Positions 151-21,740 of a DNA stretch of 64,000 nt are shown here, in pieces (the first letter of the stretch is position 1; each line of letters begins with the position of its first letter). The translations under genes and the position numbers were made by a program. The notes under the pieces are model-generated. The model did not search any database and was not told the DNA's origin. It saw only the letters and a list, made by a program, of their open reading frames with translations. The stretch is from Kofleriaceae bacterium (GTDB lineage Bacteria > Myxococcota_A > Polyangia > Haliangiales > Haliangiaceae): positions 1 to 64,000 of the forward strand of contig JAGPCY010000006.1 in assembly GCA_018057825.1 (NCBI GenBank). The letters are read 5' to 3'.

Positions 151-213
151 CGACGCGGTTGTAACACGAGGCCGGCGGTGGCGAGACAGCGTCGCGACGT
201 GCGGTCGGCGGTC

Positions 214-237: not shown

Positions 238-370
238 TCCGGGTCAGGGCGGGACGTCGCCTGGGCGGAGCGACCGGAGCCACCGCGAACCGGAGATGCG
301 ATATCGTCGGGGCGTCGCGCTGGCGGGGTCGGCCCGTCCGCGCGCTCGGCTCGAACGTGAGGAGGTCTCC

Positions 371-3314: not shown

Positions 3315-3334
3315 CGTGCACGCTCGAGGCCCTG
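3032..3334 (+). repeat. immunity 3' homology block, copy 1
   Basis: This 303-bp block covers the conserved C-terminal part of the immunity gene, its stop and 20 nt beyond. It is nearly identical to 4258-4560. It ends only 4 nt before the second toxin-tip block begins, so the two cassettes abut. Confidence 0.9.
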
Positions 3335-3786
3335 ACATCCGGCTCCAGGACCGCGGCGTGTGGCGCGGTCAAAACAACCCGCTGACCCAGTACGCCAACC
3401 GCTACGGCGAGGAGCGACACCAGGCCGAGTGGAGCTCCCACGGCTGCCAGGTGCCGACCTCATCGACCGGCGTCGCGGTGTTCGGCAGCGGCGAGCACAC
3501 CAAGCCCGACTGCATCATCGCCCGCTCGGGGCAGTGTGAGATCATCGAGTTCAAGCCGAAGAATCCTGACGCGATGGCTCTTGGCGAGCGCCAGCTCGCG
3601 GCGTACGCGGCGAGCGTGCCCAGCTATTGCGAGAGGTTCCTCAAGGGTGGCGATCCCGACAGCGGCCATGGCGGCAAGGACTTTATGGAGGCAGTGCGTC
3701 GCCACTGTGTGAACGACGGCCAGCTCAGGTTTCAGGCCAGGGTGGTGCTCTATCAGATGTACGAGAAGCAGTATGTCTGCGAGTGA
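3316..3786 (+). CDS. orphan toxin-tip module (PD-(D/E)xK-like), lacks secretion and helical regions
   Basis: A 156-codon frame opening with GTG one base after the upstream stop. From the ninth codon it repeats the tip of the full-length toxin: nearly identical through KPDCIIARSG and EIIEFKP, then divergent to a shared KQY(V/T)CE ending. It has no signal peptide, no helical delivery region and no obvious ribosome binding site. It therefore fits a stored, translationally weak alternative tip of the kind known from CDI and Rhs loci. It may be expressed at low level by coupling to the gene before it, which would explain retention of its own immunity gene. Confidence 0.75.
   Translation: MHARGPDIRLQDRGVWRGQNNPLTQYANRYGEERHQAEWSSHGCQVPTSSTGVAVFGSGEHTKPDCIIARSGQCEIIEFKPKNPDAMALGERQLAAYAASVPSYCERFLKGGDPDSGHGGKDFMEAVRRHCVNDGQLRFQARVVLYQMYEKQYVCE
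3339..3558 (+). repeat. toxin-tip homology block, copy 2
   Basis: Second copy of the 220-bp block at 2092-2311. The offset between copies is 1247 bp, while the offset of the immunity blocks is 1226 bp, so the variable segment between them is 21 bp shorter in the orphan cassette. Confidence 0.9.
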
Positions 3787-4540
3787 CCCGCCTGTCGTTT
3801 GCTTGTCGATGATCGCGCAGCGCGTCCCTGATGACCGCGAGGCTTTCTGCGAGGCCACGCGGCGCTTGGTCGAGCACCTTCCTTTTCAGAAGGGCCGCGT
3901 CATGTGGTCCGCCAAGAAAACGACGAGCCGGGTCTACAAGGCGAAGACGCTCGGTGAGGCGTTTGCGGATCCCCTTACCTGGGGGCTGTCGATCTACGAC
4001 GAGCGGCCGCTGTGGAACGTCGATTTGCACTTCCGCGCCCCTGAGCCGGGCTATCGGTACGAACGCCGCTGGCAGACGGTCATCGGTACCGTCGCGGAGG
4101 TTCCTGCCATGCTGGCCTTCGCTCAGGAGGTCGGGCGCCTGATGGGAGTGATCAGCGGGAGCGTGTCGGGGCAGGCCAACTACTGGCACGCGCTTCAGGA
4201 GGGGACCTTGGTCGCGGTCGACGGGCGTGTCGATCCTGAGATCGACCGCCGGCTCGGCGAAGACGCGATGCTGAAGCGCCGGGCCCAGACGCGGCTGCGC
4301 CGGCTGTATCCGATCACGATCATCGGGCCGGCGCTGTGGGCCGAGCTGCCGCCGATGCCGCGGTTCGACCCGATGCCGACGATCGAGGACTTCGGGGACG
4401 CCAAGCTGCTGCGGGCGTGGCCGACGTTGTGCGAGCCCCGCGACCCGGCGTTCTTGCGCGCCAACCGCGAGCTGCGCGCCTGGCTCTGGCCCTACACGAT
4501 CCAGAACCCGGCCGACCACGTCGACCAGGACCCGGCGTGA
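3773..4540 (+). CDS. immunity protein of the orphan toxin cassette (predicted)
   Basis: A 255-aa protein whose ATG overlaps the orphan tip stop by 14 nt. It starts MSASDPPVV and has no signal peptide or membrane segment. The N-terminal ~170 residues differ strongly from the first immunity protein although they align along their length (YERRW matches YQRRW; KAKTL matches RPKTF). The C-terminal ~90 residues match almost perfectly. The pattern suggests a variable toxin-recognition half and a constant structural half. Function is inferred from synteny and paralogy. Confidence 0.65.
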   Translation: MSASDPPVVCLSMIAQRVPDDREAFCEATRRLVEHLPFQKGRVMWSAKKTTSRVYKAKTLGEAFADPLTWGLSIYDERPLWNVDLHFRAPEPGYRYERRWQTVIGTVAEVPAMLAFAQEVGRLMGVISGSVSGQANYWHALQEGTLVAVDGRVDPEIDRRLGEDAMLKRRAQTRLRRLYPITIIGPALWAELPPMPRFDPMPTIEDFGDAKLLRAWPTLCEPRDPAFLRANRELRAWLWPYTIQNPADHVDQDPA

Positions 4541-4560
4541 CGTGCGCGCTCGAGGCCCTG
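4258..4560 (+). repeat. immunity 3' homology block, copy 2
   Basis: Second copy of the 303-bp block at 3032-3334, including the 20 nt after the stop. No third toxin tip follows, so the array ends here. The remaining ~96 nt to the convergent gene hold nothing recognisable. Confidence 0.9.
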
Positions 4561-4656
4561 TCGCGACGTCGGGGCGAAGGCGAGGTCCGATCTCAGCGAC
4601 GAGCCGGTCGAGCCTGCCTCTCAGGCTCCGCCGCCCGGCGACATCGCGGACCGTCG

Positions 4657-7600
4657 CTAACGCTTGGCCATCGCGAGGACGTCGTCGCAGGCGACGCTGA
4701 CCTTCTTGAGGCGCTCGGCCGACACCTCGCGGATGTGGGCGATCTCGTTGCGGGTCGGCGCGATGATGTCGACGGCGGCGAGCAGGCGCTGCTTGTCGGG
4801 TGGGTTGCCGAGGCGGGCCTTGGCGTCGGCCCAGACGTCGTTGGCAGTGAGCAGGGTAGGAAGCTGCTTCAGGTACAGGTAGTCGACGACGGTGAGCGGC
4901 TCCGCGCCCGGGGGACGCGCCCGCAGCGCCCGGGTGAGCGACTCGCGCTCGTGCTCGGGCAACGCGTTCTCGATCCGACCCGCAGCGCCGGCGCCGTACT
5001 TCGCGCCGTAGACCTCACGGACGACCTGCCGGAGGGCACGCTCGACCGCGCCGATCTGCGCCCACACGGCATCGGCACCAGGGAAGAACCACGCCGGGAC
5101 GGCGGCGGCACCATCGGACTCGCCGCCGAGCTCACCGTAGGCGGCACGGATGATGTGCGCCATGCGAACCCGGCGCGCAGCGAGAAAGTCCTCGTACGCC
5201 ATCGTGGCCCAGTCCACGGGGAGGGCGTGCTGAGCGCACATCGTCGCCCACCGTGCGTCGTCGAGCTGCAGCTTGTCGCGCAGCCTGGGGACGTAGTCGG
5301 CGGGGCCCTTGGCGCCGATCTCGAGGTTCACGTTCCAGTTGATGTCGGCGAGGTTCGCGACCTGATTGAACGCGCGACGATCGGTGATGCCCTTCTTGGC
5401 GAGCCACGCCTTGGGGAACAGGTGGTGCTGCTCGGTCGCGGACTTGCTCGCGCTGGGCCCCGGGGTCAAGAGCGTTCGCAGGTCGACGTCCGAGAAGAGC
5501 GCGCGATGGCCCAGCACGATCTGCGCGGCGCGGAACGCCAGGGCCGAGGGCGCGCGGCCCCGCTGGGTCTCGAGCGCGGTCACCAACGTCCGGGACCAGT
5601 AGTCGCCGGTGAAGGTCGACTCGAGCATCTCATCGAGCGCGCTCACGAACTTGGCGCCATCGCCCGCGCCGAAGCGACGGACGCGCGCGAGGTCGGCCTC
5701 GAACACGGTCTCCGATGAGGTCGAGTACCGCGCGGTCACCAGCGTGCCGAACACCCAGCGCGAGATCAGCCGGTCGAGGACGTGGCGCTCGACCTGCGCC
5801 CGTTGCCCTTTCACGTAGAACGCGAACGCGTTAGCGACGGCGCTGGGCGCGGCGACCAGGCTGGCGGCCACGAACCCGGCATGATGGACGCGCTTCAGGT
5901 AGTCCGACCAGGTGGTCGTGTTGACACAGGCATCGGCCGCCGCATCGAGTTCGGCCAACCGCCGCGCTCGCGCGCCCGGATCGGTGTCACCGGTATCTGG
6001 GTCGACGCCGCGCAAGAACTTGTAGATGGCCGACATGCGCGCGCGCTCGAAGGCCACGGCGCAGGCCGCGCGCAGCAACTGCTGCGCGTCGACACCGATC
6101 ACCGATTCCTCCGAGATCGTCGCCGCGCGCTTCTCGATCTTGTCCCGCAGCGAGCCGTGGAAGACCGACAGCAGGGTCAGCACGAAGTCGGCTTGCCCCA
6201 GGCGCGTCCCCTGGTTGTTGATCCGGACGAAGATGTCCGCCACCTGTTCGTCCGTCGCCTCGCCCTTGCGGATCTCGATGACCGGGAACTCGAACTTCTC
6301 GATCGCGGCGGCCGCCGCCAGGTTGTGCTCGACGGCGTCCTGGTAGGCCTGATCGACCACGCGTCCACGCGCCGCTAGCCCGGCGAAGATCTCCCGGCGC
6401 AATACAGGGAGTGACTTGCCGCCTCGCCACAGCACTCCGACATCAGCGAGGTACTCGGGATCGTTGCGGATGGCCGCATCGGCGACATCGAAGCGCCCGT
6501 CGCGCGGCCGGAAGGCGATCGTGATCGTACGCGGCTCGCCGTCGGCGTCCTTGACCTCGCGGCCCTTGATGACCGCGAAGAGCGAGGTCAGGCGCTGCTG
6601 ACCATCGATCACCAGCGCCGACGCCTTGGACGCCTTGTCGCCGGTCCCGAGCGCATGAGCCTCGACCGGGGCGTCCGGCTGCCACAGCACGACCGTGCCT
6701 GTGGGATAGCCGACGAACAGCGAGTCCAGCAGGTCTCGGACCTTGCTGTCGGTCCAGACGAAGGGGCGCTGCAGGTCGGGCAGCGCGATCGCCCCGCTCT
6801 CAACGTCGTCGAGCAGGCTCTGCACCTTGCGATGACTCTTGTCGAAGATCGGTCCGCGACCGCGGGGATCCGGCGTGTGGTTGGCCGGGGCGGCGTCGGC
6901 ATCGCGGTCGTCGCCGTCGTCGACCTCTCCGGCCTGGGCCGGCGCCTCGAACGCTGGCTGGGGCACGTCGCGCCCGAGCTCCTCTGCGAGGTACGTGACG
7001 ATCTCCGGCAGGTGGCTCTCCGGGTCGAGCCGGCGACCCATCCGCGCCATCGCCGCGTCGACGAAGCGATCGAACGGATCCCGCAACAGATCGAGGGCGA
7101 CGCCCGCCTTGCTGGCGGGGAACTTCAGCCAGAGGCCACCGGGGATCGCCTTCCAGGCCTCGCTCTCGTCCTCCTCCTTGGCGGCGAGGGCGGCGCGCAC
7201 CTCGGGAGAGATCGGACCGATCACGCTCAGCGCGACCATGCCGCCACGAAGCCGGTACGCGTACAGGCGTCCGGTCTGCAGCACCAGCGCCCCACCGCGG
7301 TTCTCGAGGACCCACCCGCCGGGACGCTCATCGTGCGCGTTGTCGACCGCGTACGCGAGGAGCTCGAGGGCGGCGCGGCGATCGACCGGGTCGGGTGCGG
7401 CCTTCTCGACCTTGCGACGGATCCGCGCTACCGCGTCGTCTTCGCCGTCCTCGGCGCTGCGCTCATCGACCATGCTGGCGAGCGCGGCCTGGGCGGCCGC
7501 CGTCAGCTCCAGCTTCGCGACGTCGAGGAGCGGCGCGCCGCGCCCCGGCAGGTGGGCGCGATCCGAGAACTCGAGCTTGAGCAAGGCGGCGTGGATGCAA

Positions 7601-8154
7601 CGCTCGAAGGCCAGGGCGGCCCCGCCGGCGATGGTTCCACCCGGCAGCTCGACCCGCGCCAGCTCGACGCGCCGTCCGCGCGGTTCCAGGCCCGAGGTCT
7701 TCACGAGTGACCGGAGCGCCGCGTTGATCGCGTTCTGTTCCGGGAGGTCCCGCTTCAGGATGGCCATCAGGCCCAGGAGCGGCGCAGCCGCCACGCCCTC
7801 CTCCTGGGCGTGGGCGATCGCGGTCTTGACGTTGACCACGACCAGCCATCGATCGGGCGACGCCACGCGCAGACACACGGACCCGCGGTATTTCTCGGCG
7901 CTCTCTCGGAAGTAGTCGACCGTCAGCAGCACCTTGCCCCCGGGCCAGGTGCACTCGGCCACGACCGAGGGTGGCATCGTCGCTCGTGGGGCCACGCCAT
8001 CGAAGCCCTCGGCCGGCCACGGCGCCGCCGGTGAGTGGCTGACAGCGATCGCGACGGGCGTACCAGCGACCGAGAGGGTGAATGGGTGCGCGCCGCCGAG
8101 GATCGCCTCGACGGCCTCGAAGGCCAACTGATTGGGGGAAGCACTGTTCGCCAT
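4657..8154 (-). CDS. DUF262/DUF1524 (GmrSD-like) protein fused to a Swt1-type HEPN domain
   Basis: Putative defence nuclease of 1165 aa and last gene of the four-gene operon. The ATG at 8154 has a GAGAGG site 6-10 nt upstream. Residues 1-440 are an unrecognised N-terminal region. Near 460-495 is the DUF262 start (LQRPFVW), and near 515 the ParB-like VIDGQQRLTS motif. Near 905 the HNH-type DUF1524 motif EQHHLFPKAW appears. The C-terminal ~150 aa end with RNEIAH near 1133, the Rx4H signature of HEPN domains, in a Swt1-family-like context (DYLYLKQL, NDVW). GmrSD enzymes cut modified phage DNA in an NTP-dependent way; HEPN domains are often RNases. It follows the ATPase gene after a 141-nt gap. 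At about twice the usual GmrSD length, the extra N- and C-terminal modules are unusual. Confidence 0.85.
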   Translation of the reverse strand: MANSASPNQLAFEAVEAILGGAHPFTLSVAGTPVAIAVSHSPAAPWPAEGFDGVAPRATMPPSVVAECTWPGGKVLLTVDYFRESAEKYRGSVCLRVASPDRWLVVVNVKTAIAHAQEEGVAAAPLLGLMAILKRDLPEQNAINAALRSLVKTSGLEPRGRRVELARVELPGGTIAGGAALAFERCIHAALLKLEFSDRAHLPGRGAPLLDVAKLELTAAAQAALASMVDERSAEDGEDDAVARIRRKVEKAAPDPVDRRAALELLAYAVDNAHDERPGGWVLENRGGALVLQTGRLYAYRLRGGMVALSVIGPISPEVRAALAAKEEDESEAWKAIPGGLWLKFPASKAGVALDLLRDPFDRFVDAAMARMGRRLDPESHLPEIVTYLAEELGRDVPQPAFEAPAQAGEVDDGDDRDADAAPANHTPDPRGRGPIFDKSHRKVQSLLDDVESGAIALPDLQRPFVWTDSKVRDLLDSLFVGYPTGTVVLWQPDAPVEAHALGTGDKASKASALVIDGQQRLTSLFAVIKGREVKDADGEPRTITIAFRPRDGRFDVADAAIRNDPEYLADVGVLWRGGKSLPVLRREIFAGLAARGRVVDQAYQDAVEHNLAAAAAIEKFEFPVIEIRKGEATDEQVADIFVRINNQGTRLGQADFVLTLLSVFHGSLRDKIEKRAATISEESVIGVDAQQLLRAACAVAFERARMSAIYKFLRGVDPDTGDTDPGARARRLAELDAAADACVNTTTWSDYLKRVHHAGFVAASLVAAPSAVANAFAFYVKGQRAQVERHVLDRLISRWVFGTLVTARYSTSSETVFEADLARVRRFGAGDGAKFVSALDEMLESTFTGDYWSRTLVTALETQRGRAPSALAFRAAQIVLGHRALFSDVDLRTLLTPGPSASKSATEQHHLFPKAWLAKKGITDRRAFNQVANLADINWNVNLEIGAKGPADYVPRLRDKLQLDDARWATMCAQHALPVDWATMAYEDFLAARRVRMAHIIRAAYGELGGESDGAAAVPAWFFPGADAVWAQIGAVERALRQVVREVYGAKYGAGAAGRIENALPEHERESLTRALRARPPGAEPLTVVDYLYLKQLPTLLTANDVWADAKARLGNPPDKQRLLAAVDIIAPTRNEIAHIREVSAERLKKVSVACDDVLAMAKR

Positions 8155-8295
8155 GTCACGACCTCTCAAAGGAACACCGTGGGTTGCTTGTCGTCCCAGG
8201 CGCCGCCGCGGCTGCGGGGAGCGGCTTCGGTGGCGCCCTGGTAGTAGATCATCCATCCGAACCGGCGAAGACGACGCGGGAGCAGAGAGACGCTG

Positions 8296-10149
8296 TCATG
8301 CGGGGACCTCGGGGTCCTTGTTGCCGGCGAGGAGCTTCTGCACGAAGGCGCGCAGGCTCGCGGCGCCGGGGGAGTTGAGGCGCAAGGCGGTGGCGGCGAG
8401 CATGCGGTCGTGGGTCGTCTTGCGGAAGGCCACGGTGTCACCGAAGAAGTGCTCGAAGGTGGCCTCGAGGACGCGGGCGCCGTGGACCTTCTTGCGCCAC
8501 TGCTTCGGGTCGTCGGGTCGCTTGCCGGTCAGGAAGCGCTTGGGATCGTCGAGGCCGTCCCAGAAGGCCTCGAGGTCCGGAGGGCTCACCTTCACCCGGA
8601 CCTTCTCGGCCCTCGCGACCTGGTGCAGGGCGTCGACGACGACCTCGGCGTCGAGGAACAGGTTCTCGAGCATGTGCTCGTCGTAGAGGGCGAGCTTGGG
8701 GCGTGGCTCCTTCGTGGGAACGTTGCCTTCGATCGCGCGCCGGAGATCCTCGAGTTGGGTCTCCTTGCGCCGCTCGCGGTCGAAGACGAAGGCGATGGCG
8801 GGTGGGATGAGGGCCGAGGAGGTGCTCAGCGTGGTGTAGATCTTGGTGATCAGGGCGGGCCGCTTGCCGCCCGGGTCGGGTTTGGCGTCGTGGCCCTCGA
8901 AGTCGCCGGTATGGAGGATGGGGCGCACCGCGATGCCACGCGGCGCGCGCAGATCGCGGAGGACAAGCTCAAGCACGTCGGCGTCAGAGGGGCCTTCGGT
9001 CCAGATGATCCGATCGGCGCCGAAGACGTCGGAGAGGGAGGAGCCGACCTCGCGCAGGAGTCGTCGCGCGTCGGCGGCGGGACCTGAGCCGCAGTTGACG
9101 ACAGTCGCGTGCTCGTCGCCGGGCTTGCGTTCGCAGAGTGAGAACGAGGCGTCGGGGAAGCTCTCGAGGCCAACGAAGGAGTGGGTCGCGAAGATGTACT
9201 GGTGTTGCTTGTGCTCGGCAAGGACCGCCAGCAGCTCGCGCACCGCGCGGGGATGGAGGTAGGTCGTCGGCTCATCGATCAAGATGATGCGCCGCGCGTG
9301 CGGGTCGGATATGACAGCGAATAGAATGGCGAGCGCGTTCGCGGTGCCGTAGCCGACCTCAGATAGGTTGAATCCGAGGGAATGCCGGTCGTCCGAGCCG
9401 AACCAGAGTTGGAGGGAGGTGTGGCCGTCACGCGATGGCACTGACTCTAGCCGCCTGATCTCGGGGAGTACTCGCTGGACGGTGTCCAGAAAGGCAAGCT
9501 TCCGCTGCGAGCTCAGGCCGTTGAAGAGGGTGATGAGTTCATCGCCACGTGAGTCAAGCTGAGCCGCCGAACGCACGAGCTTCTCATGTGCGCGAGACCG
9601 GTCGGCGTCGAAGCAAAAGAATCGGACGAGTGTCGCGAAAGGGGCGAGATGGCTGATTTGACGATGACGGACGTCGTCGTAGCCGACGCACTCGAGGACA
9701 TCGCCCTCCAGTCTATACACCCCGACGCGTGATGTCGGCGTTGAAGTAGAGATCGTGTCACTATTCCGTTCTCGCCAGGGTGGCGATGTTCGAATGCGCA
9801 CTTGTCCTTCATCGATGGCGTCAAGGGGCTTCGCCCAGTCTACCCCTGCTGGCAACGGAACCAGAACTGTGCCCTGGGATCTGGCGAGCTCCATGAGGTC
9901 TTCACGCTCCACCTCGAATTCCCACTCGATGATGCGCGGTAGTGTCTCGCGCTCGTGTTTCGTGAGTTTGGCCACGGCCAGGGTGCGCGGAGGGCCAGGT
10001 TCAGATCTGGAGTCTGTCGTGATGGCCTTGAGGAGGCTGGTCTTGCCGCTGTTGTTCTTGCCGGCGATGACGGCGGCGTTGCGGCCGAGCTCGACGGTGG
10101 CGTCCGTGAAGAGCCCGATGTTCTGGAGCTTGAAGGAGCGCAGGCGCAT
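8296..10149 (-). CDS. OLD-family ATP-dependent nuclease-like protein (AAA ATPase + TOPRIM)
   Basis: 617 aa. The ATG overlaps the methyltransferase stop (ATGA), implying translational coupling. The P-loop GKNNSGKTS lies near residues 30-38, in the SMC/RecF-like context usual for OLD proteins (RLRSFKLQNIG at the start). The Walker B region is IILIDEPTTYLHP, followed by ATHS. A TOPRIM-like second half carries TEGPSDADVLE and FVFDRERR, the acidic metal-binding elements. OLD proteins are DNA nucleases in several phage-defence systems, for example as GajA relatives. The role here is inferred from these motifs and from the operon. No UvrD-like GajB partner is seen, so it is not a standard Gabija pair. 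Confidence 0.85.
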   Translation of the reverse strand: MRLRSFKLQNIGLFTDATVELGRNAAVIAGKNNSGKTSLLKAITTDSRSEPGPPRTLAVAKLTKHERETLPRIIEWEFEVEREDLMELARSQGTVLVPLPAGVDWAKPLDAIDEGQVRIRTSPPWRERNSDTISTSTPTSRVGVYRLEGDVLECVGYDDVRHRQISHLAPFATLVRFFCFDADRSRAHEKLVRSAAQLDSRGDELITLFNGLSSQRKLAFLDTVQRVLPEIRRLESVPSRDGHTSLQLWFGSDDRHSLGFNLSEVGYGTANALAILFAVISDPHARRIILIDEPTTYLHPRAVRELLAVLAEHKQHQYIFATHSFVGLESFPDASFSLCERKPGDEHATVVNCGSGPAADARRLLREVGSSLSDVFGADRIIWTEGPSDADVLELVLRDLRAPRGIAVRPILHTGDFEGHDAKPDPGGKRPALITKIYTTLSTSSALIPPAIAFVFDRERRKETQLEDLRRAIEGNVPTKEPRPKLALYDEHMLENLFLDAEVVVDALHQVARAEKVRVKVSPPDLEAFWDGLDDPKRFLTGKRPDDPKQWRKKVHGARVLEATFEHFFGDTVAFRKTTHDRMLAATALRLNSPGAASLRAFVQKLLAGNKDPEVPA

Positions 10150-13100
10150 CAGGACTCGTCGTCGGTGAGGAGGGAGGGTTGGGACGGGGAGGCTTTGGGC
10201 TTCTTGGGTTTGGCGGCGCGGGGCTTGGGGGTGGGGGACGCGGAGGGGGCGGTGGCCTCGGCGGCGGCGCGCTCGGCGTTCAGGGCGAAGAGCCGATCGA
10301 TGACGGTGTCCTCGAAGAGGGCGAGGGCGGCCTGGCCGGCGCGATCGGTGGGGCGCGGCGGGAGGTAGGGCGGGACGGGGATGTCGGACCAGCCGTAGGC
10401 GGCGAGGACGGCGCGGTCGAGCTCTTCGTGAAGGTGGCGGAGGTGCTCGATGTAGGCGACGCGGGTGGTGGGCTCGCGCAGCTCGGGATCGGCGGCGAGC
10501 GCGGGGATGGCCTCGGTCAGCCCGGCGGGCACGGCCCACGGAGCCTGGGTGCGATCGGGATCGGTGGGGCGCTCGGCCGAGGACGGCGCGAGGTCCCCGG
10601 CGAAGTCCGGGTCCTTGAGCTGGTTGTACGTGGTCGTGAGTCCCTGCCAGGTCACGGCCATGTAGTACGCGCGGCGATCGCTGGTACATCGGCCAAGAGA
10701 GGCGAGCATCGCGTTCCTATCGGCCCCAGGGAACGGAAACGTCTCCAAGCAGTCTGCCGGCCGATAGCCGGATCGATCTTCCAGTGTCGATGAAAGCAGG
10801 GCAGCCCAGACGAGATGCACACGAGACTGTAGAAGGGTGAAGCACGAGTCGTCGCTCAATGGGAAAATTGTGACGTTGTGTGACCAAGTGCGGTCTGCGG
10901 GTTGCCAGGCGAACGCTCGATGCTTGGCGACGGACGATGTCGCTAGGCAGCGTGGGAGTCCATGGAGAGCTGCTACGAGTGCCGGGACGGTTTCGCCGAA
11001 GCGCCACCAGTAGCGTCGACGGCCTTCGCGGGGGTTCCGGTCTCGTTCTGGCTTCACTCGCTCTCGAGCGATTGTGAGCAATTGTGGCCACCTGCTGGCT
11101 TCGTCAAGTGACATGTCTCCGAAGTTGATGACGCTACGCTCCGAATCATGGAGCGGATGGGCGTTGACGTCCTCGCCTCCGATATAGGTCCTTAGAAGAA
11201 TGGAGTGTTCCGGGTCGCGCTCGATGAGGCTGCGACATTCCTTGGGGTCAAGAAGAAACCCGGTGCCGACGAGGTTGCTGCCTACGAAGCTCTTCCCCGC
11301 GTTCTCCGCCAAGGCGACCGGATCTGGCCGCTCGGCTCCCGCTCGCAGCCGCGAGTTGATCCCCGCCACACGCAATCCGTCGAGCCTCCGCTCGAGACCC
11401 TTCGCGGCGCGGCCGGTCGCGAGGTGGACGACCGACACGGTGACCGCGGCCTCGCCGGGCCAAGGCAAGGTCTTGGTGGCGTCGTAGATCACGCCGCCAT
11501 CGGCGACCAAGGCCTGGAGCCCCGTCGCGCGCGTGTCTCCTTGCGCGATCGTGTTGGTCGCGATCAGGCCCATGGTGCCGTGATCGCCGATGAGGTGCGC
11601 GCAGCGCCGGAAGAAGTGCGCGGAGTAGTCGGCGTTGCCGTGGGCGCCCTCGTGGAGCACCTTCAGCCACGCCAAGAGCGCCTCGCCGCCCTCCATGGAC
11701 AGGAGCGTGTTCTTGCCGGCGAAGGGCGGATTCCCCACGAACCCGTCGATCCACGCAGCGCCGCCGCGCTTGCCGCCGTCGAGGGGATCCGGTCGCTCGA
11801 TCCAGAAGACCTCGGGCAGCTCGATCATCCAGTGGAAGGCCGGGATGCGCTTCCGGAACTCGGCGGCCAGCTCGAGGAGCTCGGCGCTGGGCGGGCCCCC
11901 CGACGCGAGCCAGGTCGCGACGAGATCGCGCCGCCGCACGCGCTCGGCCTCGCGCTCCTTGTCCTTGGTGCTCGAGAAGAACGCGCCGAGGACCAGATCG
12001 CCGATCAGGCGCAAACGGCCGACGGCGTCCTCGGCGTCGCCCAGGAGGCGGCGCTTCTCGGCCTGGGCCTCGGGGGAGTCGTCGTTGGCGAGGGCGACGA
12101 TGCGCTCGCGGGCGTCGACGGCCTCTTGCAGGACCTCGCGGAGCTCGCGCGCGATCAGATCGAGCTGGTGGCCCGGCTTGGCGGCGTCCCAGTGAAACGC
12201 GGTGAGCTGCGCCAGGTCGAGACCGACCAGCGAGTCGCCGCACTTGAGGGCGTGATCGACGAAGGAGAAGGGCTTGTCCTTGGCCAGGGTGACGAGCCAG
12301 AGCGACAGCTTGGCCAGGGTGACGGCCTGGGGGTTGCGATCGACGCCGTAGATACAGCGCTGGGCGACCAGGCGGCGGGCCTGGGCGACGGCGTCCTCGA
12401 CGCCGTGGGCGGGGCCGTGGGAAGGCAGGAGATCGCGGGCGCGGCCCTCGCGGCGCCACGCGGCGACGACGTGATCGGCGAGCTGGCGCACGGCCTCGAC
12501 GAGGAACGCTCCGGAGCCCATGGCGGGATCGCACAGCTTGAGGCTCAGGAGATCCTCGGACGACGGGCCCTCGGCGACCGGCCCGCCCTTGCCGGCGGCG
12601 CGGCGAGGCAGCGCGGCCAGGAGCGGCGCCAGGGTCTTCTCGACGATGGGCGCGGTCAGGCTGCGCGGCGTGTAGTGCGAGCCGGAGCGACGGCGCTCGG
12701 CGCCGGGCTGGATCACGAAGCGGCCGGCGGCGGTGCGGCTGCCGGCGACGGCGGCGCCGCTGTCGAGGAGCGCGTCGAGGATGGCGTCGGCCTTCTTGGC
12801 GCCGGCGATGGCCTTGGCGACCTTCTCGGCCTCGGCCTTGGCCAGGCCGGCCTCGTCTTGCAGCCAGCGCGCGCGGGCGCCGGGCGGCTCGTTGGCCAGA
12901 TCCTCGCCGGTGATCCAGGCCCGGGTCTTCTTCAGGCACACCGCCGCGGTCGACAGCTCGATCACGCGGTAGCCCATCAGGTTCTCGTAGACCGAGCCGA
13001 GCTGCTCGACGTCGAGGGCCTTGTAGGACAACCGCTCGTCGCCCAGGAGCAAGAGGCCGCGCAACACGCGATACACGACCTCGTCGTCGATGGCCGGGAC

Positions 13101-14327
13101 GTCGAGGCGGCGGCGGCCGGCGGGATCGCCGGGGCCGGGGGCGGCGGGTTCGCGGTTGCCCTCGAGGAAGCGATAGACGTGGGGCGAGAACAGCTCGCCG
13201 TGGCGCGGCGGCATGCGCAGCGAGCCGTGGGATACGCCGAAGTAGATCGCGCGGAAGAGCGCCAGCAGCCGACCGTAGGCGCCGTAGCGCCGGGCCATGG
13301 CGTCGGGGTACGCGCCGGCGTCGGCGGCCAGCTCCTCGTACAGCGCCAGGACCGACAGGTGCTCGGCGTAGAGATCGTCGTCGACCGGCAGGAGATCGTT
13401 GTCCTCGGCGTACAGCACGAAGACCAGGCGGAGGAGAAAGGTCAGGAGCCCAGCGTAGACGTGATCGGGGCCGAGATCGGGATCGCGGTAGGCGGCGGCG
13501 AGGGCGCCGTCGGTGGCGCCGCCGTGGGCGGACTCGAAGCCCGCGAGGAGGACGTGGAGGGCCTCGAGGACCTGATCGGCGAGGGCCCGGGTGACGCGGC
13601 CCTGGGCCTCGCGCGAGGCGGCGAGGAGCGCGGGGAGCTGATGCTCGGGCGCGACGCTCCACCAGCGCGTGCGGTGGAGCAGCATGACGAAGGCGTCGAG
13701 GATGGGCCGGCCGTCGGCGCGGGCCATGGCGCCGATCGGGAAGGTGAGGGCGCCGGTCGAGGCGCCGTGGGGCGCGTACAGCAGGCGGACGTGGGTGCCG
13801 TTGGACAGGAGGCCGATCGCGACCCCGACGTGGCGCAGCAGGCGATCGAACTTGGCCGACGGCGGGTAGTCCCAGCCGCCGGTGACGGTCTCGCGAACGT
13901 CGAGGGGTAGGCCGGGCGGCAGCTCCCACAAGAGCGCGACCGGCTCGGCGGCGTCATCGCGCGCCAGGGCGGCGGTGGGCGCCAGGAGCTGACCGGTGTC
14001 GGGGATGGCGAGGCGGAAGCGATCGGGCAGGGCGGCGGCGGGGCGCCAGCGCGACGGCCCGAGCTCGAGGAGGTCGGCGAGGAAGGCCGAGAGATCGGCG
14101 ATGCGCGCGGTGGCGGGATCCGCGGTGGTCAGGTGAGCGAGGAGGCGATCGCGCAGCGTGCGATCGGTGGGGCGCGCGACCTGGGCGTCCTGGAGGGCGG
14201 GCTTGGACACCACCAGGCCGTCGATGGGCTGGACCATGCCCAGCCACTCGTCGTGAAAGCGCTCCATGGGATCGCGCGACGACCCGCGACCGCGGCCGGC
14301 GCCGGGGGCCTTGCGGCGCGCGGTCAC
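10149..14327 (-). CDS. Eco57I-class adenine-specific DNA methyltransferase, DrmMI-like
   Basis: 1392 aa. The GTG at 14327 overlaps the helicase stop in a GTGA junction, which decides the start; an ATG 20 codons later (MERFHDEWL) is an alternative. SAM motif I DPAMGSGAFL is near residue 598, preceded by the SHYTPRSL segment typical of large type IIG/type I-like N6-adenine methylases. Catalytic motif IV NPPF is near 864. The long N- and C-terminal parts probably serve target recognition. Size, motif order and pairing with a SNF2 helicase resemble DrmMI of class 1 DISARM, which marks host DNA. A lone IIG restriction enzyme is less likely because no PD-(D/E)xK core was noticed at the N-terminus. 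Confidence 0.85.
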   Translation of the reverse strand: MTARRKAPGAGRGRGSSRDPMERFHDEWLGMVQPIDGLVVSKPALQDAQVARPTDRTLRDRLLAHLTTADPATARIADLSAFLADLLELGPSRWRPAAALPDRFRLAIPDTGQLLAPTAALARDDAAEPVALLWELPPGLPLDVRETVTGGWDYPPSAKFDRLLRHVGVAIGLLSNGTHVRLLYAPHGASTGALTFPIGAMARADGRPILDAFVMLLHRTRWWSVAPEHQLPALLAASREAQGRVTRALADQVLEALHVLLAGFESAHGGATDGALAAAYRDPDLGPDHVYAGLLTFLLRLVFVLYAEDNDLLPVDDDLYAEHLSVLALYEELAADAGAYPDAMARRYGAYGRLLALFRAIYFGVSHGSLRMPPRHGELFSPHVYRFLEGNREPAAPGPGDPAGRRRLDVPAIDDEVVYRVLRGLLLLGDERLSYKALDVEQLGSVYENLMGYRVIELSTAAVCLKKTRAWITGEDLANEPPGARARWLQDEAGLAKAEAEKVAKAIAGAKKADAILDALLDSGAAVAGSRTAAGRFVIQPGAERRRSGSHYTPRSLTAPIVEKTLAPLLAALPRRAAGKGGPVAEGPSSEDLLSLKLCDPAMGSGAFLVEAVRQLADHVVAAWRREGRARDLLPSHGPAHGVEDAVAQARRLVAQRCIYGVDRNPQAVTLAKLSLWLVTLAKDKPFSFVDHALKCGDSLVGLDLAQLTAFHWDAAKPGHQLDLIARELREVLQEAVDARERIVALANDDSPEAQAEKRRLLGDAEDAVGRLRLIGDLVLGAFFSSTKDKEREAERVRRRDLVATWLASGGPPSAELLELAAEFRKRIPAFHWMIELPEVFWIERPDPLDGGKRGGAAWIDGFVGNPPFAGKNTLLSMEGGEALLAWLKVLHEGAHGNADYSAHFFRRCAHLIGDHGTMGLIATNTIAQGDTRATGLQALVADGGVIYDATKTLPWPGEAAVTVSVVHLATGRAAKGLERRLDGLRVAGINSRLRAGAERPDPVALAENAGKSFVGSNLVGTGFLLDPKECRSLIERDPEHSILLRTYIGGEDVNAHPLHDSERSVINFGDMSLDEASRWPQLLTIARERVKPERDRNPREGRRRYWWRFGETVPALVAALHGLPRCLATSSVAKHRAFAWQPADRTWSHNVTIFPLSDDSCFTLLQSRVHLVWAALLSSTLEDRSGYRPADCLETFPFPGADRNAMLASLGRCTSDRRAYYMAVTWQGLTTTYNQLKDPDFAGDLAPSSAERPTDPDRTQAPWAVPAGLTEAIPALAADPELREPTTRVAYIEHLRHLHEELDRAVLAAYGWSDIPVPPYLPPRPTDRAGQAALALFEDTVIDRLFALNAERAAAEATAPSASPTPKPRAAKPKKPKASPSQPSLLTDDES

Positions 14328-17300
14328 GACCGGGCCTCGCGATCGGGCTTGCCGGGCTTGCCGGGCCACAGGTAGACGAGGCCGATGGGGGTGACGCGGG
14401 TGAGGGCGACGTCGTAGAGCGCGGCGATCCGCTCGGGCTCGGTGGCGCGCTCGGCGGAGATCGCGGCGAGGCGGTCGGTCATGGCCTGGGTGTCGGCGAG
14501 CCAGGCGGCGCGCTCGCGAGGATCGGTGAGCTCGATGGGGAGCTGGGCGCGGCCGGCCAGCTCGTGCTGGATGCTCTTCTCTTGCGCCGACAAGAGCTCG
14601 CGCATGGCGTCGGCCTCGGTGCGGGCGCGGGTCGCCAGCATCTTGCGCGCGCGATCGGCCTCGGCGTCGGCCTCGTGCTCGAGGGCCGGCCACAGCGCGG
14701 CGAAGTCGGCGGCGGCGCCGTGGGCCAGGGCCTTGGCGATCGACTGCGGCGGGGCCTTGGCGGCGGCGTGGAGGTGGGCGTCGAGCTCGGCGCGCAGCGG
14801 CTGGGTATCGGCGTCGTCGAGGGGGCGCAGGGCGGGGCCGCGGCGAGCTTCGTCCCACCACGCGGCGACGTCGATGATCGCGTCGTGGAGACGGGCGGCG
14901 CCGGGGCCGAACAACGACAGGCGGGCCAGAGCCAGGGCGACCGGCTTGGCGACGTCGGCGACCAGGGCGGTGACCCGGGTCAGGTCGCGCGCGGAGAAGC
15001 CCTGGGCCAGGAGCCGCGACAAGATGCGCTGGGTCACCGGGTGCGAGAGGTGGAGGTGGGCGACGTCCTCGGTGAGCTGGGCCGGCGGCTCGAACACCAC
15101 CGGCAGCGGCGGACGACGGCGCCAGTCCCACAGATCTTCATCGTGCTCGCGCGGTGGTCGCACGGTGTCGAGGGTGCGCTGCCAGGTGGCGGGCAGCGCG
15201 GGGAGCGAGAAGGTGCCGGGGGCGCCGTCGGCCTCGGCCAGGGGCTCGGCGCCGTCGAGATCGACGGCCAGCTCGAGGCCAACGGTCAAGGTCTCGCGCA
15301 GGAGCGCCGGCGAGAAGTCGAGGGCGCGCCGCGACACCTCGAGGATGCGGGCGTTGTCCTTGAGATCGCGTTCGATGCGGGCGCGATCGCGCTGGGTCTC
15401 GAGCTCGGCGGTGACGACCTGGACCCGGACCGCCTCGGGGGCGACGCCGTCGAGGGCGGCCAGCGTGGTGGCGTCGATGCCGCGGGCCAGGGCGCGGTCG
15501 AGGTCGGCCTGGACCACGGTGGCCAGGGAGCCGAGCTCGCGCTGGATGGTGGCGACCTTCTTGACCAGGGCGTCGAGGACGACGTCCTCGGCGCGGTGGC
15601 GATAGACGAAGTAGTGGCAGCGCACGACCGGCGCCGGCTGCAGCGCGCGATCGATGCGGCCGTTGCGCTGCTCCATGCGCGCGGGGTTCCACGGCACGTC
15701 GAAGTGGAACAGATCGGCGCAGTAGCCCTGGAGGTTCAGGCCCTCGCGGGCGGCGTCGGTGGCGATCAAGATGCGGACCGGGTGCTCGTCGGGAGGACCG
15801 TTCCAGGCGCGCTGCACGACGGCGCGCTGGTCGTCGGACATGCCGCCGTGGAAGGTGGCGATGCGGGCGTCGCGCTCGTCGGGATCGTCGGCCAGGCCGA
15901 GGGCGGCGGCGAGCTGCTCGACGAGGTAGGTCTTGGTGTCGCCGTACTCGGTGAAGATGATGACGCGGCGGTGGTTCCAGGTCGGGGCGGCGGAGGTGGC
16001 GCGGCCGGCCCGGCCGGGGGGGGCGGTGAAGAGGTTGGCGCGCAGCCAGGCGACCAGGGCCTCGACCTTGGCGCACGGCAGCTCGCGGCGCTGGAGCGCG
16101 AGCCGGCGCAGGCGGGTGAGCAGGTCGGCGGCGGTGGCGTCGGGCGCGGGCAGGGCGGCGGCGCGGGCGGCGTCGGCGGTGGCCTCGGCGGCGTCGCGCA
16201 GCTCGTCGTCGAGATCGTCGTCGTCGTCGTCGCTGGGCTCGGGGGGGGGCGGGGCGCCGGTGGCGGCGGTGCCGGGGGCGTGCTTGTCGAGGGTGCGGCA
16301 GAACGCCGGGACCGACGACAGGAGTCGCTTCTGCAGGTTGATGAAGGCCAGGCGATCGCGGCCGCGGCTGGGCGCGACCCGCGCGGTGTACTCGGCGAGC
16401 AGGCGGGCTAGCTCGAGCTCGGGGGCGTCGGGGGTGGTCAGCTCGAGGGCCAGGACCTCGCGCTCGGGGAAGCGATGGGCGACGTCGTGGCCGCGCAGAT
16501 CGGCCTTGAGGCGCCGGACCATGACCGTCTCGAGGGCGCGGGCCGAGGGCGGCACGCCGCGGGTGAAGCGCTGGCGATCGAGGAGCGCCAGGAGCGTCGA
16601 GAAGCTGTTGGAGTGACCGTTGTGCGGCGTGGCCGACAGGAACAGGCGGTGATCGAACAGCGGCGCCAGCTCGGCGACGACGCGCGTGGTGTCGGAGAAG
16701 ACCGCGTAGCGGCTGCTCGAGGCCGGGGCGGCGGTGTGGGCCTCGTCGAGGATGAGCAAGGTGCGGCGGCGACCCTCGCGCAGCATCTGGTGCAGCGGCT
16801 CCTTGTACTCGGGGCGGCGCAGGGTCTGGTACGAGATGACGAAGCGGGCGTGGGTGACCCACGGGTTCACGCCGAAGCCGCGGTCCTGGCGGCGGCGCTG
16901 CACGAACGCGCGGTTGTACAGCTCGAAGGCCTGGCCGAAGCGGGTCGACATCTCGCGTTGCCACTGCGGGCACACCGAGGCGGGCGCGACGATCAGCACG
17001 GTGTCGATCTGGTTGCGGAGCAAGAGCTCCTGCATGACCAGGCCGGCCTCGATGGTCTTGCCCAGGCCGACGTCGTCGGCGATGAAGAGGTTGGCGCGCG
17101 GCAGCTCGAGGGCCCGCTTGAGGGGCGTGAGCTGGTGGTTCATGAGGTGGACGCCGGCGCGAAACGGCGCCTGGAACAGCCGGGCGTCGGTGGCCGTGAC
17201 CATGTTCCAGCGGAGCGCGTTGTAGTAGGCCGAGAACGTGCGCGGCGGATCGAGCTGGCCGGCGTCGCCGAGGCCGTGGTCGCGCTCGGACAGCACGCGG

Positions 17301-17800
17301 GCGCCGAGCTCGAGCTCCCACAGGACCTCGGTGCGTCGGCCTTGATGATCGTCGTCGAGGCACAAGAGCGCCACCCGGGTGGCGTCGGTCGGCGCGATCG
17401 GCGGGTGGACGGCGTCGACCAGCCAGGTGCGTCGACGCAACACCACGACGTCGCCGGGGGCGGGGGTGTCGCGCGGGCCGACCGCGGTCGGCGGTGGCGG
17501 GGTGACGTCGATCGTCGGCGGCAGGCCGGCGGCGGTCAGGAGGTGACGCGCGAGCTCGGCGCGCGCGCGGCTGTCGGCGGGCAGGCCGTGGTCCTTGCAC
17601 GCGGCGCGCAGCTCGTCGCGGTAGAGGTGGCCGAGGAGGCCGGGCAGCGCGAGGGGCGCGGCCTCGAGGAGGCGCGCGATCTGCGCGTCCTTGCGGGCCG
17701 AGGTCGGCAGGGTGACGCCGAGCCCGCGGGCGAGCTCGAGGAGACGAGCCTGGGTGAGGCCGATCAAGACCGACCCGGCGGTAGGTGACGACGCGCCCAT
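14324..17800 (-). CDS. SNF2-family helicase, DrmD-like
   Basis: First gene of the defence operon, 1158 aa. After an N-terminal ~110 aa of SAP-like short helices come SF2 motifs: ADDVGLGKTIEAG (P-loop, near 242), VIVAPASV, LILDEAHTA (DEAH, near 351), FLSATPHNGHS, VIIFTEYGDTKTYL, and the C-terminal ATDAAREGLNLQG and QRNGRIDR near 684-710. This is the RapA/DrmD type of SNF2 ATPase rather than a type I HsdR, since no nuclease domain is evident. The ATG at 17800 has only a weak ribosome site. DrmD is the helicase of class 1 DISARM, but DrmA, DrmB and DrmC are absent from this window. It probably translocates on DNA for the complex; that is inference. Confidence 0.88.
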   Translation of the reverse strand: MGASSPTAGSVLIGLTQARLLELARGLGVTLPTSARKDAQIARLLEAAPLALPGLLGHLYRDELRAACKDHGLPADSRARAELARHLLTAAGLPPTIDVTPPPPTAVGPRDTPAPGDVVVLRRRTWLVDAVHPPIAPTDATRVALLCLDDDHQGRRTEVLWELELGARVLSERDHGLGDAGQLDPPRTFSAYYNALRWNMVTATDARLFQAPFRAGVHLMNHQLTPLKRALELPRANLFIADDVGLGKTIEAGLVMQELLLRNQIDTVLIVAPASVCPQWQREMSTRFGQAFELYNRAFVQRRRQDRGFGVNPWVTHARFVISYQTLRRPEYKEPLHQMLREGRRRTLLILDEAHTAAPASSSRYAVFSDTTRVVAELAPLFDHRLFLSATPHNGHSNSFSTLLALLDRQRFTRGVPPSARALETVMVRRLKADLRGHDVAHRFPEREVLALELTTPDAPELELARLLAEYTARVAPSRGRDRLAFINLQKRLLSSVPAFCRTLDKHAPGTAATGAPPPPEPSDDDDDDLDDELRDAAEATADAARAAALPAPDATAADLLTRLRRLALQRRELPCAKVEALVAWLRANLFTAPPGRAGRATSAAPTWNHRRVIIFTEYGDTKTYLVEQLAAALGLADDPDERDARIATFHGGMSDDQRAVVQRAWNGPPDEHPVRILIATDAAREGLNLQGYCADLFHFDVPWNPARMEQRNGRIDRALQPAPVVRCHYFVYRHRAEDVVLDALVKKVATIQRELGSLATVVQADLDRALARGIDATTLAALDGVAPEAVRVQVVTAELETQRDRARIERDLKDNARILEVSRRALDFSPALLRETLTVGLELAVDLDGAEPLAEADGAPGTFSLPALPATWQRTLDTVRPPREHDEDLWDWRRRPPLPVVFEPPAQLTEDVAHLHLSHPVTQRILSRLLAQGFSARDLTRVTALVADVAKPVALALARLSLFGPGAARLHDAIIDVAAWWDEARRGPALRPLDDADTQPLRAELDAHLHAAAKAPPQSIAKALAHGAAADFAALWPALEHEADAEADRARKMLATRARTEADAMRELLSAQEKSIQHELAGRAQLPIELTDPRERAAWLADTQAMTDRLAAISAERATEPERIAALYDVALTRVTPIGLVYLWPGKPGKPDREARS

Positions 17801-17898
17801 GACCAGAGGCGTGTATACGACGAGTCGGCGGGGGGCGGGCGCGGGCGGGGGCGGCGGTCGGCGGGCGGCGGCGGGGGGATCGCGACGGGCGGTGGTGG

Positions 17899-17922
17899 GC
17901 GATCACCGCGCGCGGGTGAGCG
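17899..17922. repeat. dispersed intergenic motif, copy 2
   Basis: Matches 214-237 at 23 of 24 positions. It lies upstream of the defence operon and directly beside the hexamer array. The two copies both precede accessory cargo but in opposite orientation to the downstream genes, which argues against a simple promoter element. Confidence 0.4.
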
Positions 17923-17927
17923 AGGAC

Positions 17928-18083
17928 GAGACCGAGGGCGAGACCGGGACCGAGACCGAGGCCGAGACGGAGGCCGAGACCGAGACCGAGACGGAGGCCG
18001 AGACGGAGACCGAGACCGAGGCCGAGACCGAGGCCGAGACCGAGACCGAGGCCGAGACCGAGGCCGAGACCGAGGCCGAGACC
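17928..18083. repeat. hexamer tandem array A (GAGRCS)26
   Basis: Exactly 26 units of a 6-bp repeat, mostly GAGACC and GAGGCC with some GAGACG. It fills much of the 373-nt gap between the helicase start and the Gly-rich gene; no gene is seen in the rest of the gap. It would lie in the 5' region of the defence operon transcript or just upstream of it. The same family occurs at 52568-52746 and 55040-55255. Confidence 0.9.
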
Positions 18084-18173
18084 GGCTGGCGAGCCGACCT
18101 CGAGTCTGCGCAGTGGCTCGATCGCGGGCGGCCGCTCGCGGGTGTCCGCTTGCCCTACCGTGGTTGCGCCCGG

Positions 18174-18401
18174 TCAGCCGCCGCTGCTGTTGTTCCCCCG
18201 GCCCGGACCTGACGGCTTGCCCGTGCCGCTCGGGAAGTTGCCGCCGACCCCGCTGAACGGGTTGCCGGTGCCGCCACCTCCTCGTCCGCCGACGTTTCCA
18301 CCGCGGCCGCCGCCGCCTTGTCCGCCGCTGTTTCCACCGCGGCCGCCGCCGCCGCTGCCACCGCGTCCGCCGTTGCCAGAACCACCGGATCCTTTGGCCA
18401 T
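18174..18401 (-). CDS. small glycine-rich protein of unknown function
   Basis: 75 aa beginning MAKGSGGSGNGGRGG, more than half glycine with interspersed Arg, Asn and Ser, ending GRGNNSSGG. It has no signal peptide, membrane segment or cysteine. The ATG is well supported by AGGAGA about 8 nt upstream, so this is probably not a composition artefact. It points the same way as the defence operon and diverges from the XRE regulator, sharing the short intergenic region that holds a 12-bp palindrome. It could be a disordered RNA-binding or structural peptide. No family was recognised. Confidence 0.6.
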   Translation of the reverse strand: MAKGSGGSGNGGRGGSGGGGRGGNSGGQGGGGRGGNVGGRGGGGTGNPFSGVGGNFPSGTGKPSGPGRGNNSSGG

Positions 18402-18445
18402 GTGACGTCTCCTGATAACGGGTTGAGAGGACAAAATGGAAGCTG

Positions 18446-18457
18446 CCCATTAATGGG
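18446..18457. promoter_or_regulatory. 12-bp palindrome, candidate XRE operator
   Basis: CCCATTAATGGG is a perfect inverted repeat in the 86-nt divergent region between the Gly-rich gene and the XRE gene, 30 nt before the regulator start. The AT-rich centre stands out in this genome. Helix-turn-helix dimers of the XRE type commonly bind such sites; binding here is inference. Confidence 0.5.
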
Positions 18458-18487
18458 TGGCATGTCAATTGGGAATCTGAACCGGAT

Positions 18488-18880
18488 ATGTTCGACGCCA
18501 TGACGCACGAACGGCAGGTCTACGCCGCAGTGGTGGGGCGACTCATCCAGCGCGCACGGACGAAGACCGGGGCCCGTCAGGAGGATCTCGCGCTCCGGGC
18601 TGGCTTGTCGCAGTCGTCCTTGTCCCGTTTCGAGAACGGCCAGAGCCTTCCGGACCTGTACGAGCTGCGCGGCCTGGCGCGGGCCCTCGATGAAGAGCCG
18701 GACGAGTTCGTCGCGCGATCCGAGCGCGCGTTCGAGCTGACCAAGGCCGCCGCGGACAAGGTCGCGCCGGGCGCCGGCTGGGCCGAGATCGTCGCGGCGG
18801 GCGTGCTGTCCGCGGTGGTGTTGGTCGGCATCGCGGCGCTGTTCGAACGGTCGAGCAAGCGAGGTCGCGCGAAGGGCTGA
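18488..18880 (+). CDS. membrane-anchored XRE-family transcriptional regulator
   Basis: 130 aa. Residues ~15-75 form a helix-turn-helix of the Cro/CI type (RQEDLALRAGLSQSSLSRFE is the recognition core). The C-terminus carries one hydrophobic helix, AAGVLSAVVLVGIAALF, followed by a basic tail, so the protein should sit in the inner membrane with its DNA-binding domain in the cytoplasm. The ATG at 18488 is used; an ATG four codons later is possible. It diverges from the Gly-rich gene and is the nearest regulator to the defence operon. It may sense envelope or membrane state, by inference from topology. Confidence 0.8.
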   Translation: MFDAMTHERQVYAAVVGRLIQRARTKTGARQEDLALRAGLSQSSLSRFENGQSLPDLYELRGLARALDEEPDEFVARSERAFELTKAAADKVAPGAGWAEIVAAGVLSAVVLVGIAALFERSSKRGRAKG

Positions 18881-18941
18881 AGCGCGCGATCGCCGCGCCA
18901 GGGTGATCGCGTCGGCGCGGGGCGTGGGCGATGCTCGCGGC

Positions 18942-19595
18942 GTGCTGGCTCGGCTGGTCTTGATCGGCGACATCCACGGCGAGCGCGCGCACCTCGAGCG
19001 CGTGTTGGCCCACGCGGCGGCGGTGCGGCCGGATGGGGTGCTGGCGGTCGGCGACCTCGTCGACGGTGGCGACGACGTGGTCGGGTGTATCGAGAGGCTG
19101 GCGGCGGCGGGGGTGGTGGCGGTACGCGGCAATCACGAGCGGTGGTTGCTCGATGGTCATCCGCTCGAGCCGTTCGCTGGCGGCGAGGCGGAGCTGGCGT
19201 GGCTGCGCGGGCTGCCGGCGACGCGGCGCCTCGAGACGGTGGCGGGGCCGCTGCTCCTGTGCCACGGGGTCGGCGCCCACGACATGCAGCAGCTCGGGCC
19301 CGACGATCGCGGCTACGCGCTCGAGAGTAACTTCGCGCTCGCGGAACTGCTCGGCGCCGGCGTCTACCGCTGGATGGTCGGCGGCCACACGCATCGGCCG
19401 ATGATCCGGAGCTTCGCGCGGCCGGGGGCGGCGCCGGCGCTCACGGTGCTCAACCCCGGCACGCTGTGTCGGCGCGATCGCCCGGGCTTCCTCGAGGTCG
19501 ACCTGGGGGCGGGGACGGGGACCTGGTACGGCGTTGACGACGCGGGCGTGACACGGCTCGGGCAGGTGGCGCTGGCGGTCGATAGCGCGCCGTGA
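18942..19595 (+). CDS. calcineurin-like metallophosphoesterase
   Basis: 217 aa. Metal-binding motifs appear in family order: GDIHG near the N-terminus, GDLVDGG, GNHE, then CHG and GGHTH. These bind two divalent ions for phosphoester hydrolysis in the YfcE/MJ0936-like family. The GTG at 18942 places the GDIHG motif close to the N-terminus as in relatives; a GTG at 18903 would add 13 residues. No signal peptide, so cytoplasmic. The substrate is unknown. Confidence 0.85.
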   Translation: MLARLVLIGDIHGERAHLERVLAHAAAVRPDGVLAVGDLVDGGDDVVGCIERLAAAGVVAVRGNHERWLLDGHPLEPFAGGEAELAWLRGLPATRRLETVAGPLLLCHGVGAHDMQQLGPDDRGYALESNFALAELLGAGVYRWMVGGHTHRPMIRSFARPGAAPALTVLNPGTLCRRDRPGFLEVDLGAGTGTWYGVDDAGVTRLGQVALAVDSAP

Positions 19596-19675
19596 CCGCG
19601 GGGCGAGGTCGATGCGGTGCGCCCGAGGCGTTCGCGCGGCGCACGGGCGCAGAAGGATCGCGGTACGATCGCACG

Positions 19676-20485: not shown

Positions 20486-20512
20486 GCGCCGGGCGGCGGG
20501 GCCGGTTGCGGC

Positions 20513-21580: not shown

Positions 21581-21740
21581 GTCGCGACCTTGAGCAAGGC
21601 CTAGGCCGGCGTCGCGGGCTCTCGGACGCCGCCCGTCACCCCGCGGGGTGTCCAGCGCGCTTGACACCGTCGGCCGCGTCGATGGCCATGAGTTGACACT
21701 GGCCCCCGCGGCCGCACGCCGTGCGGTATCGTCACCTCGG

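Follow-up and report, generated by a model that had tools for sequence, protein, structure and literature searches.

A probable class 1 DISARM locus, divided between two contigs of a Kofleriaceae genome, with OLD-TOPRIM and GmrSD-HEPN-like genes embedded behind drmMI

Introduction

DISARM is a bacterial, multi-gene anti-phage defence system in which methylation marks self and DrmAB binds unmarked DNA with 5' overhangs (PMC9142583). The class 1 form consists of DrmD-DrmMI-DrmA-DrmB-DrmC, and the PADLOC rule for its detection requires all five genes in one locus (PMC9252829). Here we consider bases 1-64000 (hereafter the window) of a 290-kb contig, C32 (JAGPCY010000006.1), from the Kofleriaceae bacterium assembly GCA_018057825.1, in which drmD and drmMI are followed by two putative nuclease genes. 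The original prediction regarded these four genes as a candidate undescribed defence system.

Both of the additional gene families are known from the surroundings of other systems. GmrSD proteins recognise DNA that contains modified cytosines and cleave it, and some are embedded in type I restriction-modification (R-M) and Hma clusters, to which they were proposed to be complementary (PMC11411939); a report of complementary protection by GmrSD beside BREX is cited in the same paper. OLD-TOPRIM proteins either work as stand-alone nucleases (class 1 OLD) or stand guard and answer anti-restriction proteins (PARIS) (PMC10568477; PMC12839542), and OLD ATPases paired with HNH nucleases occur beside BREX (PMC12839542). 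Defence genes embedded in multi-gene systems, among them Hma-embedded candidates, have been brought forward as 'guilt by embedding' in a preprint (Payne et al. 2024, as cited in PMC11411939 and PMC12988326).

Results

Our analysis suggests that the window probably holds the drmD-drmMI half of a class 1 DISARM that was split by a contig break, with OLD-TOPRIM and GmrSD-HEPN genes embedded as accessory nucleases in the slot between drmMI and drmA. We favour this reading because DrmD and DrmMI pass their family thresholds, both genes are single copies, the DISARM genes stand in order on one contig of a close relative, and inserts are frequent in this slot.

The first two genes are bona fide drmD and drmMI, with family matches far beyond chance. 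DrmD reaches 978 bits with the NCBIfam equivalog NF038317 (DISARM_DrmD, cut-off 610) and 962 bits with the PADLOC DrmD model, and carries the helicase motifs Walker A (GLGKT at 245), DEAH (at 352), SAT and motif VI (EQRNGRIDR at 710). DrmMI scores 1153 bits with the PADLOC DrmMI model, and its Pfam domains (MmeI_Mtase, Eco57I and MmeI_TRD) are those of an MmeI-type methylase with a target-recognition domain; the motifs DPAMGSGAF at residue 600 and NPPF at 866 are intact, and the tail is rich in lysine and proline (K/P-rich). The window drmD is the sole DrmD-grade match in the genome assembly, and its drmMI the only copy there. The class 2 markers drmE and drmMII are not among the matches listed for the four window proteins, with no genome-wide search made for them. 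Hma (HmaABC) was also considered for the set of helicase, methylase and ATPase. It was rejected because the DrmD and DrmMI models give much better scores (HmaA attains 200 bits versus 962 for DrmD) and because the ATPase is OLD-type and not DUF499; neither HmaB nor HmaC is among the top matches listed for the four proteins of the locus.

The absence of DrmA, DrmB and DrmC, from which an undescribed system had been concluded, is confined to this contig end. Using DrmA and DrmB queries from Myxococcus, both validated by PADLOC, single matches in the genome were obtained for drmA (C65:13378-16635, 51%) and drmB (C65:16665-18461, 45%) on a second contig, C65, with a drmC homologue (C65:18494-19237) behind drmB and the three genes near the left end. 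The genome hence carries drmD-drmMI on C32 and drmA-drmB-drmC on C65. Ahead of drmA (C65:1-12143; locus L059 of genome G000) are a second OLD-TOPRIM ATPase, a CHAT-domain protein, a metallophosphoesterase and a large repeat protein, whose gene holds a 100-base run of N.

In a relative of the same family (G065/G290), both halves stand on a single contig, C201 (JAIOQA010000219.1), in the order drmD end (cut by the contig start), drmMI, approximately 12 kb of other genes, drmA, drmB and drmC, all in one orientation. Its bases 1-5728 align with window positions 15900-10203 at 78% DNA identity, and bases 17829-23624 with C65 13392-19181 at 77%. The homology with the window ends about 50 bases short of the drmMI end, and that with C65 begins at the drmA start. 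At the protein level, the identities to the window genome are 79% for DrmD, 75% for DrmMI, 73% for DrmA, 76% for DrmB and 69% for DrmC. The 12-kb cargo of the relative, comprising HNH, GmrSD_C, an eCIS/Scabin-like toxin protein and others, is wholly unlike the OLD and GmrSD-HEPN pair of the window. The scan for DrmMI was performed at order level. A second, diverged drmA (43%; G290:C272:78695-81784, L080) was also seen in the relative, which may hold two DISARM-like loci.

We then assessed how commonly the drmMI-drmA position is interrupted, in a census of 27 class 1 loci in which a single contig carries both drmMI and drmA (26 after merging a plasmid that was counted twice), counting gaps >700 bp as inserts. 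Such inserts separate drmMI from drmA in 20 of the 27 loci and drmD from drmMI in four, and were seen neither between drmA and drmB (0/22) nor between drmB and drmC (0/13); as several of the loci come from Nostocales and two from Myxococcus, they are not independent, and the counts are descriptive. Six loci are without a real drmMI-drmA insert (L009, L010, L011, L023, L027/L120 and L118). The last of these, on a Sphingomonas parapaucimobilis plasmid (NZ_CP155757), has drmD-drmMI-drmA-drmB located between the cas3 and casA genes of a type I-E CRISPR-Cas locus. Often the cargo consists of defence-related genes, and often its translation is coupled to that of drmMI. It includes PtuA with a PtuB-like HNH protein (Septu-like, L036), a PARIS-like pair of ATPase (AAA15) and DUF4435 protein (L018 and Trichormus plasmid C), the same ATPase and DUF4435 type, by position, in Nostoc pn3, and further DarT with Macro (DarTG) and IrrE, Schlafen, HTH-IrrE, an exo/endonuclease-phosphatase and a RloC-like AAA_13 protein. 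Among 49 loci of DrmMI relatives, drmD adjoins drmMI in most full-length cases, and a homologue of the window's OLD gene is found behind drmMI in none.

Four minus-strand genes of the predicted sizes make up the locus (Table 1). The window starts at base 1 of C32, and its left edge is therefore the contig end. The drmD/drmMI junction is the anticipated GTGA overlap, while that of drmMI and the OLD gene, read previously as ATGA, is TGATG with a 1-base overlap, coupling the OLD start to the drmMI stop. The spacing of 141 nt between the OLD and GmrSD-HEPN genes stands, given a gene 4 start at the ATG at 8154; an alternative in-frame ATG upstream, at 8256, would yield 1199 aa. The GC content at third codon positions is 0.82 for the OLD gene and 0.95 for drmD. 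Just upstream of drmD, at 17900-18110, lies a long ctcggt/ctcggc hexamer-like repeat run.

Table 1. Genes of the DISARM-related locus in the window
Gene	Position	Strand	Product	Assignment
drmD (gene 1)	14324..17800	(-)	1158 aa	DrmD, SNF2-like helicase of class 1 DISARM
drmMI (gene 2)	10149..14327	(-)	1392 aa, GTG start	N6-adenine methylase of class 1 DISARM
OLD-TOPRIM (gene 3)	8296..10149	(-)	617 aa	probable embedded cargo gene 1, OLD-type ABC ATPase + TOPRIM
GmrSD-HEPN (gene 4)	4657..8154	(-)	1165 aa	probable embedded cargo gene 2, GmrSD-type (DUF262 + HNH), C-terminal HEPN-like motif

Judged by its sequence, gene 3 encodes an OLD-type ATPase-TOPRIM protein with the predicted catalytic residues in place. 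The Pfam matches are AAA_21/AAA_15, and the Walker A, Walker B and H-loop motifs are all intact. In an alignment with four homologues, at identities of only 22-27%, the TOPRIM residues E385, D416 and D457 are invariant together with K577. The best PADLOC matches are the generic AriA/NsnB/Old, none decisive, and the PARIS AriAB model gives only 49.9 bits, with generic ATPase models scoring higher. Gabija, a class 2 OLD system, was rejected, congruent with the original prediction: no GajB helicase of the UvrD/PcrA/Rep-like type lies beside the OLD gene, the neighbours of which are drmMI and the GmrSD protein.

Embedded GmrSD-like genes are a known phenomenon, represented in the HEC families of PADLOC, and HEC-05 is the best PADLOC match of gene 4 (91.7 bits), followed by PDC-M55C (87.4 bits). 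The Pfam GmrSD_N model is matched at 99.9 bits, whereas neither GmrSD_C nor HEPN of Pfam gives a match. DUF262 with DGQQR (residue 517) and an HNH/DUF1524-like region with HHLFPK (residue 910) identify the predicted product as a GmrSD-type protein. DGQQR, HHLFP and RNxxAH are kept in three homologues from other genera (57, 52 and 37% identity), and R, N, A and H of the C-terminal RNEIAH (residue 1135) are invariant across the four sequences. The domain calls made earlier (DrmD, DrmMI, OLD-TOPRIM and DUF262-HNH-HEPN) are accordingly right, with HEPN to be read as HEPN-like, from the conserved RNxxAH motif only. Residues 1-225 have no counterpart in the two closest homologues (57% and 52%). A single-sequence structural model of the HEPN-like tail is all-helical and poor (predicted local distance difference test, pLDDT, 45), and a model of the N-terminal 436 aa is also poor (pLDDT 37).

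Away from DISARM, relatives of the OLD gene were detected in three class-mates and on a Rhizobium plasmid, flanked by unrelated genes; the class-level scan scored only 4 candidates per genome, and distant OLD copies may be missed. Relatives of the GmrSD-HEPN gene are solitary, except that in one genome the gene (L129, 8639-11527, 52%) immediately follows a type I R-M operon (hsdM-hsdS-hsdR), which adds another kind of host system for this family of embedded nucleases. Homologues of the last two genes are thus unlinked to drmD-drmMI in the genomes where they were found, an outcome that the original prediction had itself named as refuting. Scans of viral contigs returned no relatives of either protein.

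The left end of C32 (233-4540) repeats a region of a further contig, C43 (87%/74%), and the right end of C65 repeats the adjoining part of C43 (92%). These repeats could explain the contig ends, without proving a join. The left end of the window (2-4540, plus strand) encodes a protein with a Tox-REase-9-like end (sub-threshold Pfam match), then a gene of no assigned family, a second copy of the toxin-like end (3316-3786) and a further gene sharing the C-terminus ...IQNPADHVDQDPA. This region has the appearance of a polymorphic-toxin/immunity cluster that includes an orphan cassette, and it has a copy at C43:37180-40239 (87%/74%). Elsewhere in the window, an apparently truncated open reading frame (26243-26911, minus strand), similar to the N-terminal portion of type I HsdM methylases, is located in a low-GC stretch (22-28 kb, GC 0.61-0.66), and likely IS66-type transposase genes (29906-32417, minus strand) are next to a tRNA-Ala(cgc) gene.

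Discussion

In the split-locus reading that we favour, the drmD-drmMI and drmA-drmB-drmC halves most likely belong to a single locus that was broken in the assembly, a join that we infer. From what is known of the families, DrmMI would mark host DNA by adenine methylation, and DrmAB together with DrmD would engage unmarked incoming DNA. One step further, GmrSD-HEPN may restrict phages that evade DISARM through modified DNA, in the way that BrxU works next to BREX, and its HEPN part may provide an RNase back-up. OLD-TOPRIM would probably be a fail-safe that combines sensor and nuclease and that may respond, like PARIS, to anti-restriction proteins; alternatively, it may be a DNA nuclease as in class 1 OLD.

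It is quite possible, although we consider it less likely than not, that the two cargo genes are standalone defence passengers, functionally unrelated to DISARM and kept since the site tolerates insertion. This would be a variant of the split-locus reading and agrees with the genomic side of it. In its favour, both families are also found on their own in other places, and the slot accepts many kinds of genes, including toxin and IrrE/HTH-type genes. On the other hand, the frequent defence character of the cargo and its frequent translational coupling to drmMI argue for a functional tie, as does the complementary protection reported for GmrSD beside BREX (cited in PMC11411939), shown elsewhere and not here. 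In a more novel reading, the drmMI-drmA gap may be a dedicated slot for sensor-nuclease modules that are coupled to the methylase and fire as a fail-safe when a phage inhibits DISARM, here as an OLD-TOPRIM sensor-nuclease with a GmrSD-HEPN dual nuclease, a notion that we hold to be rather doubtful.

Several observations weigh against a single locus with embedded nucleases. The C32-C65 junction is not covered by any sequence, and no overlap exists between the two contig ends. A comparison of the right flank of C65 in five genus mates revealed no flank shared with C32, the synteny being too poor for an empty-site test. A second DISARM with the exact OLD and GmrSD-HEPN pair was not found, and the functions proposed for the cargo derive from families. 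Furthermore, C65 starts with the 21-aa K/P-rich tail of a cut-off upstream gene, which is coupled by ATGA to the second OLD-TOPRIM gene (63-1853) and leaves room for a second, unassembled drmMI. This would imply two DISARMs: one on C65, complete with its own drmD-drmMI in an assembly gap, and a separate, truncated copy in the window, either borrowing DrmABC in trans or inactive. The arrangement at the C65 start parallels that of drmMI and OLD in the window, K-rich tails are present in several DrmMI proteins, and the toxin-immunity cluster at the left end of the window, having an 87%-identical copy on C43, could be ordinary chromosome. Yet only one drmD and one drmMI were detected in an assembly rated 99.7% complete, and both halves share the sister contig C201 at similar identity, as expected of one co-inherited system. 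We thus deem two DISARMs unlikely.

An autonomous four-gene system, with DrmMI marking self, DrmD patrolling, OLD and GmrSD-HEPN as effectors and DrmABC dispensable, is largely refuted and highly improbable: genes 1-3 are tightly packed with coupled starts, and the four genes are directly consecutive with drmA/B/C not on this contig end, but the genome does contain drmA/B/C, which the closest relative has in linkage with drmD-drmMI, the OLD type of the window is absent behind drmMI in all 49 DrmMI loci, with other cargo in the slot of most lineages, and genes 3 and 4 have homologues that show no linkage to genes 1 and 2.

Beyond removing a false new system, the case illustrates that a contig end can make half of a known system look novel. 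It also provides a usable rule, as the drmMI-drmA gap of class 1 DISARM commonly carries an insert, often of known defence genes. Genes of no known family in this gap are therefore promising as new defence genes, and programs that call DISARM should tolerate a long gap at this position.

Compared with class 1 DISARM as described, drmD and drmMI are in the same order, and so are drmA, drmB and drmC in the genome; the differences are that the halves are on two contigs and that OLD and GmrSD-HEPN genes are directly behind drmMI. The class 1 DISARM of Trichormus variabilis plasmid C (NC_007412) is similarly arranged, as drmD-drmMI-ATP-binding protein-second cargo gene-drmA-drmB-drmC, with the ATPase start overlapping the drmMI stop as in the window. 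Its nuclease partner is DUF4435, forming a PARIS-like pair, whereas the window has a fused TOPRIM plus GmrSD-HEPN. With the OLD-family nucleases (class 1 OLD, GajA and the PARIS AriAB fusion), gene 3 shares an N-terminal ABC ATPase and a C-terminal TOPRIM with acidic residues and a distal lysine, but it lacks an adjacent UvrD-like helicase, reverse transcriptase or separate AriB. Gene 4 resembles the type IV restriction enzymes GmrSD, BrxU and TgvB in DUF262 with DGQQR and in the HNH (DUF1524-like) region, and differs by the additional 225-aa N-terminal region and the C-terminal HEPN-like region. As in the 'guilt by embedding' cases, a GmrSD-like gene (its best PADLOC match in the BrxU group) and an ATPase gene are found inside a multi-gene defence cluster, here with class 1 DISARM as the host and with a HEPN-like C-terminus on the GmrSD protein. 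The OLD-HNH pairs beside BREX (PMC12839542) are the closest published parallel to the OLD and GmrSD pair of the window.

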